A DNA stretch of 64,000 nucleotides from Acidobacteriota bacterium. GTDB taxonomy: Bacteria; Acidobacteriota; Terriglobia; Terriglobales; Acidobacteriaceae. The translations under genes and the position numbers were made by a program. The stretch lies in contig QIAU01000138.1 in the NCBI GenBank assembly GCA_003225055.1, positions 1 through 64,000 on the forward strand, read 5' to 3'. How positions within the stretch are numbered: the first letter of the stretch is position 1; each line of letters starts with the position of its first letter. A model generated the notes under the pieces. That model was not told the origin of the DNA. It worked only from the letters and a program-made list of their open reading frames with translations, and did no database searches. This document shows, piece after piece, positions 55,121-63,228 of this stretch.

Positions 55121-55246
55121 GCATTTAGCCCTTGGCCTCGGGCCCGTATCGGCTGCTGCCGCTTCTGAGGGCTAGCTGATGAGGACTAGCTGATGGCTGA
55201 GCTGCCAAATGCCAATGGCTAACCCCGAGTGCAGGTTGGAGGCTTG

Positions 55247-55897
55247 ATGTTTACCGGGATTATCGAAGAGGTGGGCCGGATTCGTCGAATCGAACAGAAA
55301 GGTGAGAACCGGCGGATCACCATCGAAGCCAGAAGAACACCTAAAGAACTCAAAAGCGGTGACAGCGTCGCCGTCAGCGGCGTGTGCCTGACTGCTCTGG
55401 CTATTCGTCAGAATTCGTTCTCTGCCGATCTGGCTCCGGAAACATGGATTCGGACTTCGTTCTCACGAGTGAAGCCGGAAGCGCTGGTGAATCTTGAACT
55501 GCCGATGCGAGTGGACGGCCGCCTGGGAGGCCACCTGGTGCAGGGACATGTCGACGGTGTAGGCAAGCTCATCGCATTCGAGCCGATTCCCGAGTCCGAG
55601 AATTGGTGGCTGAGAATCCATATACCAGACGAACTGGACAGATATGTCGTCTACAAGGGATCGATTGCGATCGAGGGAATTGGCCTGACCGTGGCTAAGC
55701 TGGACAGCCGATGCTGCACTGTGGCTATCATCCCGCACACCGTGGAGGCGACTAACTTGAAGACATTAAAACCAGGCGATCCCGTTAATCTCGAAACCGA
55801 CCTGATCGCGAAATATGTGGAAAAGATGATGATGGCGCGTGGCGAAGCGGTCAGCAAGACCATCACGGTAAAGCGGCTGGTGAGAGAAGGTTTTTGA
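55247..55897 (+). CDS. ribE: Riboflavin synthase alpha chain
   Basis: Dismutates two lumazines to riboflavin. MFTGIIEEVGRI at the start and two homologous barrel halves are seen: SGDSVAVSGVCLTA then GGHLVQGHVDGVG in the first, and YKGSIAIEGIGLTVA in the second. The family repeat of MFTGII and the C-terminal LETDLIAKYVEKMM are intact. At 216 residues it has the normal size. The ATG at 55247 follows TTGGAGG. The lumazine synthase (ribH) is not in the window. Confidence 0.94.
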   Translation: MFTGIIEEVGRIRRIEQKGENRRITIEARRTPKELKSGDSVAVSGVCLTALAIRQNSFSADLAPETWIRTSFSRVKPEALVNLELPMRVDGRLGGHLVQGHVDGVGKLIAFEPIPESENWWLRIHIPDELDRYVVYKGSIAIEGIGLTVAKLDSRCCTVAIIPHTVEATNLKTLKPGDPVNLETDLIAKYVEKMMMARGEAVSKTITVKRLVREGF

Positions 55898-56060: not shown

Positions 56061-57554
56061 GTGGAAACCCAAAGCTTCAGTTCCGAAACGAAGCCGGTTC
56101 GAGTGGCTGCGCGGGCGGCTACGGAACCTGCTACGGACTTGGCAGCAACCCCCCTGACTCCCTGGTGTACTGAGGACGAGAGTCGGCACTCGGTTCGGTT
56201 CTATTCCAGCGATCAATTTTTCGTAGAAACCTGGGGCCGCATGATCGGCACCGTTCTCGGAGCCGGCGATGGGGCCGTTGTGGTCGCAACCCAGCCGCAC
56301 CGTGACGCCCTGGCTGAACTGCTGACCGGGCGCGGCCTGAATATCTCGGTCGCAGTGGAACAGGGTCGCTACGTCGCTCTGGACGCGACTGAGATGCTGG
56401 CTACGTTCATGGTTGATGGCACGCCTGACGCCGAGCGTTTTACGGATGTGGTGGGCGGCGTCCTGGCGCGGGCCAGTGCGTCGCCGGAAGGGAAACGACT
56501 GAGGGTGTCCGTTTTCGGCGAGATGGTAGCTGTTTTGGTCGCGGAGGGAAATCCAGATGCCGCGATTCGGCTTGAACAACTGTGGAACCAGTTAGCTTTG
56601 GATCATTCGTTTGTGCTGCACTGCGCCTATCCCATACATGGTTTTTGTAGGAAAGAGGATTGTGATAGCTTCTTGAAAATCTGCGCGGAACATTCGGCGG
56701 TGGTCCCCACCGAACGCTACACCCGGATGGGCAGCGAAGGCGAGCGCCTGCGCCATATCACGGAACTGGAGCAGACGGCGCAAGCTCTCCAATCCGAGAT
56801 GGCGGAACGTACCCAGGCCAAGGCCCGCAGCGCAGCACTGGAAAGCGAAAACGGGCAACTGGTCGAGGAAGTCCGGAAGCGCGAACGGGCGGAGGATGGA
56901 CTGAGGACCCTGACTGCGCGCCTGTTGACCATTCGAGACGAGGAACGACGTCGGGTCGCCCGCGAGCTTTACGATGGGACGGCGCAAGTTTTGGCTGCCT
57001 TGGCCATCAATCTCGGAATCGTAGAAATCGAAAAAGATGTTCTCAGCCGAACCTCTTCTGACCTCCTCTCCCAAAGTACGAAATTAGTTCACGATCTCTT
57101 GCAAGACGTTCGCAGCCTCTCTCACTTGCTGCATCCTCCCACCTTGGACGAGATGGGAATCGTTTCCGCGATCCATTGGTATGTCGAGAGATTTATGGAG
57201 CGGAGCCCGGTACGGGTAGAGCTCGTCATGCCCGAGGATCTGGGGCGGCTTCCGCGCGAGGTGGAGATGGCCGTCTTCCGCGTGGTCCAGGAGTCACTTA
57301 CCAACGTTCACCATCATTCCGGAAGCAAGACGGCAAGCGTTCAAGTCAGCCGTTCTCCCAGAGAAGTGGTGGTCGAAGTTCGAGATCAAGGAAAGGGAAT
57401 CCCGCCGGAAATAAAGCTAGCCGGGAAAGATGCGATGGCGCGAGGCGTCGGAATAAGCGGAATGCGCGAGCGCGTTCGTCAGCTTGGAGGTACCGTTTCG
57501 GTAGACTCGGATCATCACGGAAGCATCATCCGCGCCACCTTGCCGCTGGCCTAG
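56061..57554 (+). CDS. MEDS-domain histidine-kinase-like protein lacking the phospho-acceptor His
   Basis: A 497-residue cytoplasmic protein. The N-terminal MEDS domain (about residues 40-190) has HSVRFYSSDQFFVETWGRMIG, VVVATQPHRDALAELL and VVGGVLARASA. A coiled linker (about 225-285) precedes a HisKA_3/NarX-type core. The H box reads ERRRVARELYDGTAQVLAAL: residue 304 is Tyr (TAC, 56970-56972) where the phospho-acceptor His is expected. The ATPase half is intact (N box VVQESLTNVHHHSG, DQGKGIP, GISGMRERV). So it can probably bind ATP but not autophosphorylate in the normal way. No regulator gene is adjacent. The GTG start at 56061 fits. Confidence 0.85.
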   Translation: METQSFSSETKPVRVAARAATEPATDLAATPLTPWCTEDESRHSVRFYSSDQFFVETWGRMIGTVLGAGDGAVVVATQPHRDALAELLTGRGLNISVAVEQGRYVALDATEMLATFMVDGTPDAERFTDVVGGVLARASASPEGKRLRVSVFGEMVAVLVAEGNPDAAIRLEQLWNQLALDHSFVLHCAYPIHGFCRKEDCDSFLKICAEHSAVVPTERYTRMGSEGERLRHITELEQTAQALQSEMAERTQAKARSAALESENGQLVEEVRKRERAEDGLRTLTARLLTIRDEERRRVARELYDGTAQVLAALAINLGIVEIEKDVLSRTSSDLLSQSTKLVHDLLQDVRSLSHLLHPPTLDEMGIVSAIHWYVERFMERSPVRVELVMPEDLGRLPREVEMAVFRVVQESLTNVHHHSGSKTASVQVSRSPREVVVEVRDQGKGIPPEIKLAGKDAMARGVGISGMRERVRQLGGTVSVDSDHHGSIIRATLPLA

Positions 57555-57591: not shown

Positions 57592-58362
57592 TCAGACCCC
57601 GAGTTTGAGTTCATCCAACTCCAGAAATTCCTGCACAATGGGCTGGCTGGACCTCTCCAGTTCTTGATAGGTCCCGAAGAAGATTGCTTTTCCTTCCTGA
57701 AGGAAAACGACACGATCGGCTAGCTTTTTCGCCAGGCGCATATCGTGAGTGACAACAATACTGGTCAGGTGCAGCTGAAATTTGAGCTTCTTGATGAGGT
57801 CCCCGAGCAGTTGCGCCATGAGCGGATCGACCATGGTCGTGGGTTCATCGTAAAGAACACACTCGGGCTGAGCGGCCAACGCCCGGGCAATCGCGACCGA
57901 GCGCTTCATTCCGGTGGAAAGATCAGAGGGCAGCAAGTCACGCATTTCTTTGACGCCCACCATTTCCAGCAAGCCATCGATGATCTGAAAAATCTGTTCT
58001 TCTCTCAGATCCCTTCTTTCGCGAAGCGGGAACGCGACGTTCTCCCCTACGGTCAAAGAGTCAAACAAGGCGCCGTTCTGGAAAACCATCGTGACCTTTT
58101 TGCGGACCTCCTCAAGCTGCGGCTCGGAGTAATCGGTGATGTCCTCGAAGGCCACGATCACGCGGCCCTCATCAGGCTTTAGAAAGCCCATGATGTGATG
58201 AAGCGAGACTGATTTCCCTACCCCGCTTCGGCCGAGAATGCACAGAGTCTCGCCCGGCATGACGTAAAAGCTGACGTGATCGAGCACCCGGTTGTCGACG
58301 AAGGCTTTGCTCACATCTTCGAATTCAATGTAGGGCTTGGTGGGCGGGACGGAACTGGGCAT
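57592..58362 (-). CDS. MlaF-like ABC transporter ATPase
   Basis: A 256-residue ATPase of the Mla/Ttg2A type, which powers phospholipid traffic between membranes. Walker A is LGRSGVGKS, Q-loop TMVFQNGALFDSLTVGENVAF, signature LSTGMKRSVAIARAL (Thr replaces the second Ser/Gly of LSGGM), Walker B VLYDEPTTMVDP (Met in place of the usual Gly-Leu) and H-loop VVTHDM. The FQNGALFDSL stretch is characteristic of MlaF. No mlaE or mlaD is next to it, so it is an orphan in this window. It converges on the MEDS gene. Confidence 0.85.
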   Translation of the reverse strand: MPSSVPPTKPYIEFEDVSKAFVDNRVLDHVSFYVMPGETLCILGRSGVGKSVSLHHIMGFLKPDEGRVIVAFEDITDYSEPQLEEVRKKVTMVFQNGALFDSLTVGENVAFPLRERRDLREEQIFQIIDGLLEMVGVKEMRDLLPSDLSTGMKRSVAIARALAAQPECVLYDEPTTMVDPLMAQLLGDLIKKLKFQLHLTSIVVTHDMRLAKKLADRVVFLQEGKAIFFGTYQELERSSQPIVQEFLELDELKLGV

Positions 58363-61788: not shown

Positions 61789-63228
61789 ATGCGGATTTGG
61801 ACTACCTCCGAGTTGCCAAAGCCTTTAGCCGGCTACGGAGCTGCCGCAGCGTTGCCCGGCGCAGCTCTTCTGGTTTGGCGGATTTCGCCGGTTATGCACC
61901 AGAATCCCTTCGTGCTGTTCGTTGCGGCGGTGATCATCAGCGCACGTTTCTTCGGATTCGGGCCGGGTGTTTTTTCCTCTGTTCTGTCTGCGGTCTTGAT
62001 CGACTACGGAGTATTCCACCCACACTTTGCCTGGTCATTGTCCAACAAGAATTTCCAAGAATTGCTGATCTTTCTGCTGGTGTCCGTGCTGGCCAGCGGT
62101 CTGGCGAGACAGAAATCCAGAGCGGAAAGTCGAGCCGACCAGGCACTGCAACATGTGGTAGCCATTGTCGAATCCTCCGCGGATGCAATTTTGAGCAAGA
62201 ACATCAACGGAATCATCACCAGTTGGAATCCCGGAGCAGAGCGGTTGTACGGATATCGCGCGCAGGAGATCATCGGAAAGCACATTTCTATCCTCTCTCC
62301 GCCAGAACAGCAGGGTGAGATTCCCAACCTGTTGGAAAAGCTGCGGCGCGGCGGCTCCGTGCAGCCCTACATGACCGAGCGTGTTCGTAAGGACGGAACG
62401 CGCGTGAATGTCTACCTCTCTATATCGCCGATCCGTAACCGGCGCGGTGAAGTGGTAGGGGCGTCCACCATTGCCCAGGACCTCACTTCCCAGCAAAAGG
62501 CGGAAGAGATGCTGCGCAAGAATGAAAAGCTGGCAACGGCGGGGCGGCTGGCGGCAGCCATCGCGCATGAGATCAATAATCCCCTGGAGGCAATCGGAAA
62601 CCTGCTCTACCTGGCACGCCGCGATAAGAGCAAATCCGACGAATACCTGGAGACGGCAGAAAACGAAGTGCAGCGCGTGGTGAACATTGCTCAGCAGACT
62701 TTGGGACTGGTACGCGATGCAGCAGCGATGGCGCCTTTGGACGTGTCCAATGTACTGGAGGAGGTCGTCAACCTCTACACCCGCAAGCTCAATGCGAAGA
62801 AAATCCGCCTGGAGAAGAAGTTCGAGCCCGGCGTGGAGATTCGGGGATTTTCAGGGGAACTGCGACAGGTTTTTTCGAACCTGATTGCAAATGCCATCGA
62901 GGCCATGCCCGAACAAGGACGCCTGCTGTTACGCGTGGAACGCAGCCATGAGTGGACCAATAGTTGCCGCCCTGGGGTACACGTAACCGTGGCGGACAGC
63001 GGACAGGGCATCGCGCCACAGGACGTAGCGCACCTGTTTGAGCCCTTTTTCACGAGCAAGAAGGAAAGCGGAACCGGATTGGGACTCTGGCTAACTCACA
63101 ACATCGTGCAAAAACATGGCGGCACCATCCGTTTGCGCAGCAGTACTTCGCCAGGAAAAAGCGGTACGGTGTTTCGGCTCTTCCTGCCCAAAACTACCGA
63201 AACTCCCGAGACGGCGGGGAGCCACTAG
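61789..63228 (+). CDS. Sensor histidine kinase with DUF4118, PAS and HisKA domains
   Basis: A 479-residue sensor kinase. Four N-terminal helices with ISARFFGFGPGVFSSVLSAVLIDYGVF match DUF4118 (KdpD-type). A coiled segment leads to PAS (IVESSADAILSKNINGIITSWNPGAERLYGY) at about 125-245. HisKA has the intact phospho-His in RLAAAIAHEINNPLEAIGNL. The ATPase domain has the N box LRQVFSNLIANAIEAMP, VADSGQGIAPQDVAHLFEPFFTSK and GTGLGLWLTHNIVQKHGG. Segments are cited by their ends. No response regulator is adjacent. The ATG at 61789 is taken. The next gene is the prepilin peptidase. Confidence 0.92.
   Translation: MRIWTTSELPKPLAGYGAAAALPGAALLVWRISPVMHQNPFVLFVAAVIISARFFGFGPGVFSSVLSAVLIDYGVFHPHFAWSLSNKNFQELLIFLLVSVLASGLARQKSRAESRADQALQHVVAIVESSADAILSKNINGIITSWNPGAERLYGYRAQEIIGKHISILSPPEQQGEIPNLLEKLRRGGSVQPYMTERVRKDGTRVNVYLSISPIRNRRGEVVGASTIAQDLTSQQKAEEMLRKNEKLATAGRLAAAIAHEINNPLEAIGNLLYLARRDKSKSDEYLETAENEVQRVVNIAQQTLGLVRDAAAMAPLDVSNVLEEVVNLYTRKLNAKKIRLEKKFEPGVEIRGFSGELRQVFSNLIANAIEAMPEQGRLLLRVERSHEWTNSCRPGVHVTVADSGQGIAPQDVAHLFEPFFTSKKESGTGLGLWLTHNIVQKHGGTIRLRSSTSPGKSGTVFRLFLPKTTETPETAGSH

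Follow-up and report, generated by a model that had tools for sequence, protein, structure and literature searches.

Tyrosine at the phosphoacceptor position of an orphan acidobacterial MEDS-HisKA_3 sensor: possible recent loss of autokinase activity

Tyrosine in the H box

The window, the whole 64 kb stretch of DNA analysed here, encodes a MEDS-HisKA_3-HATPase_c sensor with tyrosine where the phosphoacceptor histidine is expected. We refer to this protein as the Tyr304 kinase (Table 1). Is the substitution real, and what might such a sensor still do? The initial annotation read the H box as RELYDGTAQ, with tyrosine for histidine. The TAC codon of residue 304, and alignment with DesK, bear this out. 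Briefly, the H-box codons (positions 56961-56987) are CGC GAG CTT TAC GAT GGG ACG GCG CAA. In a phmmer alignment the segment arelydgtaq pairs with ARDLHDTLGQ of DesK. Hence, Tyr304 occupies the phosphoacceptor place, numbered His188 in the titles of DesK mutants, and Gln309 is the motif glutamine. The annotation also took HDGT as the family norm. This did not hold; the closest relatives have HES or HEN and others have HDS. Its description of the ATP-binding boxes as intact was correct, with N, G1 and G2 present and HATPase_c above the Pfam cut-off.

Table 1. Features of the Tyr304 kinase locus (window positions)
Feature	Position	Strand	Details
MEDS-HisKA_3-HATPase_c sensor (Tyr304 kinase)	56061..57554	+	497 aa, GTG start
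MEDS sensory domain, residues 42-194	56184..56642	+	Pfam PF14417, 59.3 bits vs cut-off 29.8
HisKA_3 (DHp) domain, residues 295-362	56943..57146	+	Pfam PF07730, 41.3 bits vs cut-off 24
Tyr304 codon TAC replacing phosphoacceptor His	56970..56972	+	Sequence, alignments
DGTAQ, Asp305-Gln309, HisKA_3 DxxxQ phosphatase motif, retained	56973..56987	+	Motif as described in the available text of PMC3510030
HATPase_c (CA) domain, residues 402-496	57264..57548	+	Pfam PF02518, 53.2 bits vs cut-off 26.4
N box QESLTNVHHH, present	57288..57317	+	
G1 box DQGKG, present	57384..57398	+	
G2 region GVGISGMRERVRQLGG, present	57444..57491	+	
Upstream neighbour, two lumazine-binding stretches (riboflavin synthase alpha chain)	55229..55897	+	
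Downstream convergent neighbour, ABC transporter ATPase (MlaF-like, our reading)	57592..58362	-	

The protein groups with HisKA_3 kinases by its DHp domain and N, G1 and G2 boxes; the phosphoacceptor histidine is lacking. It is a MEDS protein by Pfam score, and Asp305 and Gln309 provide a DxxxQ motif of the NarX/DesK phosphatase type. A histidine pseudokinase lacks a residue required for autophosphorylation, and here the histidine is absent. None of the named HisKA_3 kinases in NCBIfam (MctS, UhpB, MadS, LiaS, NarX and others) matched at its equivalog cut-off. All 11 families listed were far under their cut-offs, the highest being MctS (145 bits versus 700). A structure model (pLDDT 77.3, pTM 0.40) gives the domain order, and a helix of residues 226-323 that passes residue 304, without fixing where the domains lie. 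Foldseek matches of the model include a structure of DivL.

We used codon patterns to gauge how rare the tyrosine is. A search of 200 family genomes with an unspecified H codon gave at least 150 H boxes. Among the 150 listed, read by eye, 149 had CAC or CAT and one, that of the Tyr304 kinase, had TAC. A pattern demanding tyrosine matched in 2 of 398 family genomes, at the Tyr304 kinase and at a different type of kinase in genome G351. A pattern for asparagine or tyrosine matched in 2 of 378, at the Tyr304 kinase and at an asparagine-bearing kinase in genome G011; this pattern is not exhaustive, and misses the G351 tyrosine because of the residue preceding its glutamine. Across 84,980 species genomes, a collection that may omit the source genome of the Tyr304 kinase, the tyrosine pattern found 13 matching stretches. 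Reading of the frames assigned one to a kinase that has an ATP domain (L042), one to a Streptomyces frame that stops soon after the tyrosine, three to small proteins of HisKA_3-LuxR type and eight to unrelated proteins. We also aligned 57 distinct kinase cores similar to the Tyr304 kinase, with poorly covered rows omitted and one stop-containing row dropped. The position is histidine in 55, asparagine in one and tyrosine in one.

Searches for MEDS-HisKA_3 relatives recovered 13 from 398 family genomes (four cut or broken) and four more from 399 class genomes. These 17, four from other fetched loci and the Tyr304 kinase itself make up the 22 rows of our tree. The homologue comparison proposed in the initial annotation found histidine in all 21 other rows, the nearest being only ~50-55% identical. 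This counts against a conserved tyrosine lineage, not against the substitution itself. A protein query against genome contigs found no relative, and a literature search for tyrosine in the H box found no paper. We found no support for a conserved tyrosine family; the residue is shared by no relative found in the pattern searches or the 21 rows. As far as seen, Tyr304 is private to this gene.

Other kinases recovered in the course of this work have features of their own. The tyrosine-bearing kinase of G351 (L042:3590-3622, minus strand, the same as L063) is a propeller-type HisKA_3 kinase that reads EFYDTLLQ and has its ATP boxes. Its propeller looks shortened, and inspection of the upstream frames by eye showed no obvious missing part. 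G011 carries tandem HisKA_3 paralogues 36 bp apart (L078:12328-13944 and L078:10658-12292, both minus strand). The upstream paralogue reads ELNENTGQ, with asparagine for histidine and glutamate for aspartate, and has HATPase_c; the downstream paralogue reads ELHDSAGQ. A His-less kinase thus sits beside a His-bearing sister, a candidate heterodimer. Three actinobacterial MAG contigs (L047, L048 and L053) contain frames of 134-136 aa in which an ARELYD H-box-like segment is followed by a LuxR-type HTH; the search pattern itself demanded the tyrosine. The one small protein of the three that was checked (L047:3617-4018, minus strand) has Pfam HisKA_3 and GerE and lacks an ATPase domain.

Condition of the kinase and its orphan branch

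We next consider what is left of the kinase. In a leave-one-out comparison of the 57 cores, the histidine is the only one of the 30 columns with at least 95% conservation at which the Tyr304 kinase departs; with the threshold at 90%, it departs at 2 of 44. At least one departure at the 95% columns is seen in 17 of the 57 cores. Hence, one such departure is ordinary in number. Compared with 12 non-orphan MEDS rows, the Tyr304 kinase differs at 10/65 conserved columns in MEDS, 5/16 in the linker, 8/31 in DHp and 3/29 in CA. The corresponding counts for its relative L074 are 8/65, 1/16, 8/31 and 4/29. The terminal branch of the Tyr304 kinase has a length of 0.51, versus 0.49 for L064, which is the same gene as L074 and has all boxes present. 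We conclude that the protein is not general wreckage; the ATP boxes and DxxxQ are retained. If the CA domain drifted freely after the histidine was lost, its 29 unchanged columns give an estimated upper limit of about 0.10 changes per site since then. Set against the branch of 0.51, this indicates that the loss was recent or that the CA domain is still selected. GC and GC3 of the gene (0.590 and 0.640) are ordinary for eight neighbours (0.543-0.624 and 0.631-0.720). A foreign origin was therefore unsupported by composition.

The tree splits the Tyr304 kinase, together with L074, L075, L076, L077, L083 and L084, from the other 15 rows (support 100/100). Kinase lesions occur in four of these seven members and differ in kind, Tyr304 being one. 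L083 and L084 keep the histidine and [D/E]xxxQ, and their N, G1 and G2 boxes are unrecognisable. In each, 17 of 29 CA columns conserved in the 12 non-orphan rows are changed. Both (L083:2257-3759, plus strand; L084:4086-5711, minus strand) have Pfam MEDS and HisKA_3, with HATPase_c absent, in open frames of 500 and 541 codons. Judged by sequence, they are pseudokinases of the reverse type, retaining the histidine. Their placement within the tree is unsure because both are long branches. L076 is interrupted by two stops and a change of frame. All boxes are present in L074. L075, interrupted by a run of N, and L077 (genome G438), cut by a contig end that makes its CA domain uninformative, are lesion-free where readable. 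Truncation of L075 (genome G444) was considered as a further lesion and rejected, as the run of N lies at the break. The other 15 rows showed no lesion, with L086 partly unread at N.

The [D/E]xxxQ motif is retained in 22 of 22 rows. Hence, it does not mark the orphan branch. Its first position is glutamate in five of the six branch relatives and aspartate in L084. Common to the readable members of the branch are a MEDS sensor and a DHp face with [D/E]xxxQ. A literature search on the MEDS domain and on acidobacterial MEDS/HisKA_3 kinases did not find the branch described.

No response regulator gene was found adjacent to the Tyr304 kinase. A tblastn search with the linked NarL-type regulator gave no match in either the window or bases 50000-67529 of the contig. 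Nor was a homologue of this regulator found around any of the seven branch members in the surrounding DNA covered, several of the contigs being short (that of L077 stops within the gene, and that of L083 measures 5.2 kb in full). A NarL-type or receiver gene adjoins nine MEDS kinases (L078-L082, L086 and L096-L098). Lesions were found in 0 of 9 kinases with an adjoining regulator versus 4 of 8 without (Fisher p 0.029, uncorrected, all lesions falling within one branch and some contigs being short). This test omitted L075, L077 and L102-L104, the last three having an insert between MEDS and DHp; adding L102-L104 gave p 0.094. The host genome (G000) encodes four regulators 60-70% identical to the partner of the linked MEDS kinases, the top two (70% and 67%) being at C23:175299 and C251:48304. 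The 9 kb around each of these two contained no HisKA_3-like H box by pattern, and no HisKA_3 relative was found elsewhere within the window. A DUF4118-PAS-HisKA-HATPase_c kinase with an ordinary histidine is encoded at window positions 61789-63228 (plus strand), 4.2 kb downstream of the Tyr304 kinase, and nothing links the two.

Two frames were considered as split-kinase partners and rejected, as neither has a MEDS match or anything linking it to the Tyr304 kinase. One, L008, is an ATPase-domain frame without an H box. The other (L012:1270-2115, minus strand, contig C95 of the host genome) is a DUF4118 kinase N-terminus that ends just past the H box RALHDSLGQL. It is in frame with the end of an AI-2E family transporter and looks like a deletion fusion.

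Both genes flanking the Tyr304 kinase are syntenic in the same-genus genome G001. The gap between the matched stretches is 234 bp there, versus 1836 at the Tyr304 locus, and is too small for the kinase. Hence, the gene is absent from the syntenic site. G001 yielded no full-length relative of the Tyr304 kinase, and one MEDS frame cut by a contig end. By this comparison the gene is accessory, and either a gain here or a loss in G001 may explain the difference.

Explanations for the substitution

We tentatively favour a real, probably recent, loss of autokinase activity in an orphan accessory sensor, which may retain binding to, or phosphatase activity on, a NarL-type regulator. Since other members of its branch have lost kinase parts too, the likeliest readings of the Tyr304 kinase are a sensor without kinase activity and a gene at the onset of decay. 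Replacement of the histidine by tyrosine would prevent histidine autophosphorylation, and hence the usual phosphotransfer to a response regulator. Any remaining action would be expected to rely on MEDS and on the DHp face bearing DxxxQ. The protein could bind a NarL-type regulator, encoded elsewhere in the genome, and dephosphorylate it. The MEDS domain and intact ATP domain would set the conformation, giving an off-switch without an on-stroke. NarX phosphatase activity is described as requiring DxxxQ, a motif conserved in HisKA_3 (PMC3510030, available text). The phosphorylatable histidine is described as nonessential for NarX-mediated dephosphorylation of P~NarL (PMC5231405, available text, citing Huynh 2010). 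MEDS proteins are described as binding simple hydrocarbon derivatives (PMC11507031, available text). The NarX findings, MEDS ligand binding and retention of DxxxQ therefore make our best guess at a function a ligand-gated protein that dephosphorylates or binds a NarL-type regulator. As no relative shares the tyrosine, nothing indicates that the tyrosine form was selected. DivL, which lacks phosphatase as well as kinase activity (PMC4211667, available text), also speaks against this reading. We have also considered, and think unlikely, a wider proposal in which the orphan branch moved by separate routes (the histidine lost once, the ATP domain twice) from kinase to ligand-gated off-switch. Its members would then be small-molecule-controlled phosphatases or sponges of NarL-type regulators, reduced to MEDS and a DHp docking face with [D/E]xxxQ.

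Undirected decay comes close behind, though we judge it rather less than probable. The sensor would be an unused accessory orphan, with the tyrosine as the first visible lesion of pseudogenisation and no role left. Absence of the gene from the G001 site and the pseudogene state of L076 agree with this, as do the kinase fragment fused to a transporter end in the host genome (L012) and, by our reading, the shortened propeller sensor of the other tyrosine kinase (L042/L063). However, the frame of 497 codons is open, only the histidine has changed among 30 highly conserved columns, and the composition resembles that of the neighbours. The low estimate of change on an end branch of 0.51, if CA is free to drift, would restrict decay to the recent past. 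Alternatively, the assembly could carry a consensus error or a mixed base at 56970, the cell having CAC. A single transition is involved, the draft assembly is of 301 contigs and no relative has the tyrosine. We nevertheless find an error very unlikely: the gene has no frameshift, the window has no N, and other branch members have lesions of their own. In addition, only three HisKA_3 kinases in the family lacked the histidine by pattern (the Tyr304 kinase and those of G351 and G011), so such calls are rare.

A further explanation, which seems quite unlikely to us, is repurposing of the kind seen in DivL. In this case the transmitter would sense a phosphorylated regulator, or pair with another kinase and steer it allosterically. 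Foldseek matched the model to a DivL structure, among others. Tyr550 of DivL lies in the same place, and DivL is described as binding DivK~P with neither kinase nor phosphatase activity (PMC4211667, available text). Similarly, a frameshifted ChrS pseudokinase is reported to promote signalling of HrrS, its paralogue, and ChrS-HrrS heterodimers were seen (PMC9491836, available text). Against this, the account available in PMC4211667 has DivL binding an ATP analogue weakly, but the ATP boxes are present in the Tyr304 kinase. Moreover, the window holds no other HisKA_3 relative, the sole nearby kinase noticed being the HisKA type 4.2 kb downstream, and the tyrosine is conserved in no relative. The initial annotation offered a pseudokinase, a tyrosine-phosphorylating variant or recent decay. 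A pseudokinase and recent decay both fit our data; a tyrosine-phosphorylating variant found no support. We give hardly any credence to autophosphorylation of Tyr304, although the CA domain is present and conserved. No relative found has the tyrosine, and DivL, with tyrosine in the same place, showed no autokinase activity in the available account (PMC4211667). Tyrosine autophosphorylation had been reported for RdmS, a Methanosarcina kinase without an H box. After re-examination of that report, RdmS is now said not to be an autokinase (PMC11784639, available text).

Comparison with known systems

By itself, a single substitution is modest. The orphan branch mixes one His-less member with an ATP domain, two His-bearing members with no recognisable ATP domain and members with all boxes. 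This is a ready set for dissecting the parts of the HisKA_3 transmitter. The branch could also show whether loss of the linked regulator precedes loss of kinase activity. In our literature searches DivL was the recurring example among bacterial histidine pseudokinases, with a few others such as ChrS. The DHp domain of DivL is of the HisKA type, and its tyrosine is, as far as is known, conserved across DivL orthologues. ChrS is a HisKA_3 kinase.

The Tyr304 kinase resembles DivL of Caulobacter in that its DHp-CA transmitter has tyrosine in the phosphoacceptor place. However, DivL has PAS domains where the Tyr304 kinase combines MEDS with HisKA_3, and DivL belongs to a known cell-fate pathway. 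DesK and NarX share the DHp family, DxxxQ and the CA boxes, DesK being the best solved match by sequence. Unlike the Tyr304 kinase, they have the histidine, a known regulator and other sensor domains. The regulator-linked MEDS kinases have the same domain order and are 42-47% identical (tblastn). In these the histidine is present, as are the other boxes where readable, and a regulator or receiver gene adjoins.

ChrS of Corynebacterium glutamicum is likewise a sensor kinase that has lost kinase activity yet retains a role in the cell (PMC9491836, available text). Its CA domain was lost in laboratory evolution, and it is nearer to L083 and L084 than to the Tyr304 kinase. In the chloroplast sensor kinase (CSK), loss of the histidine and loss of the regulator partner seem to be correlated, a likeness to the orphan branch. 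CSK has been suggested to be a serine/threonine kinase, with serine autophosphorylation reported (PMC6949291, available text, for both statements). It differs in being a plastid protein of plants and green algae. The Tyr304 kinase is set apart from DivL, ChrS and CSK by its pairing of HisKA_3 with MEDS and by a tyrosine unseen in relatives; in kind, it is like all three.
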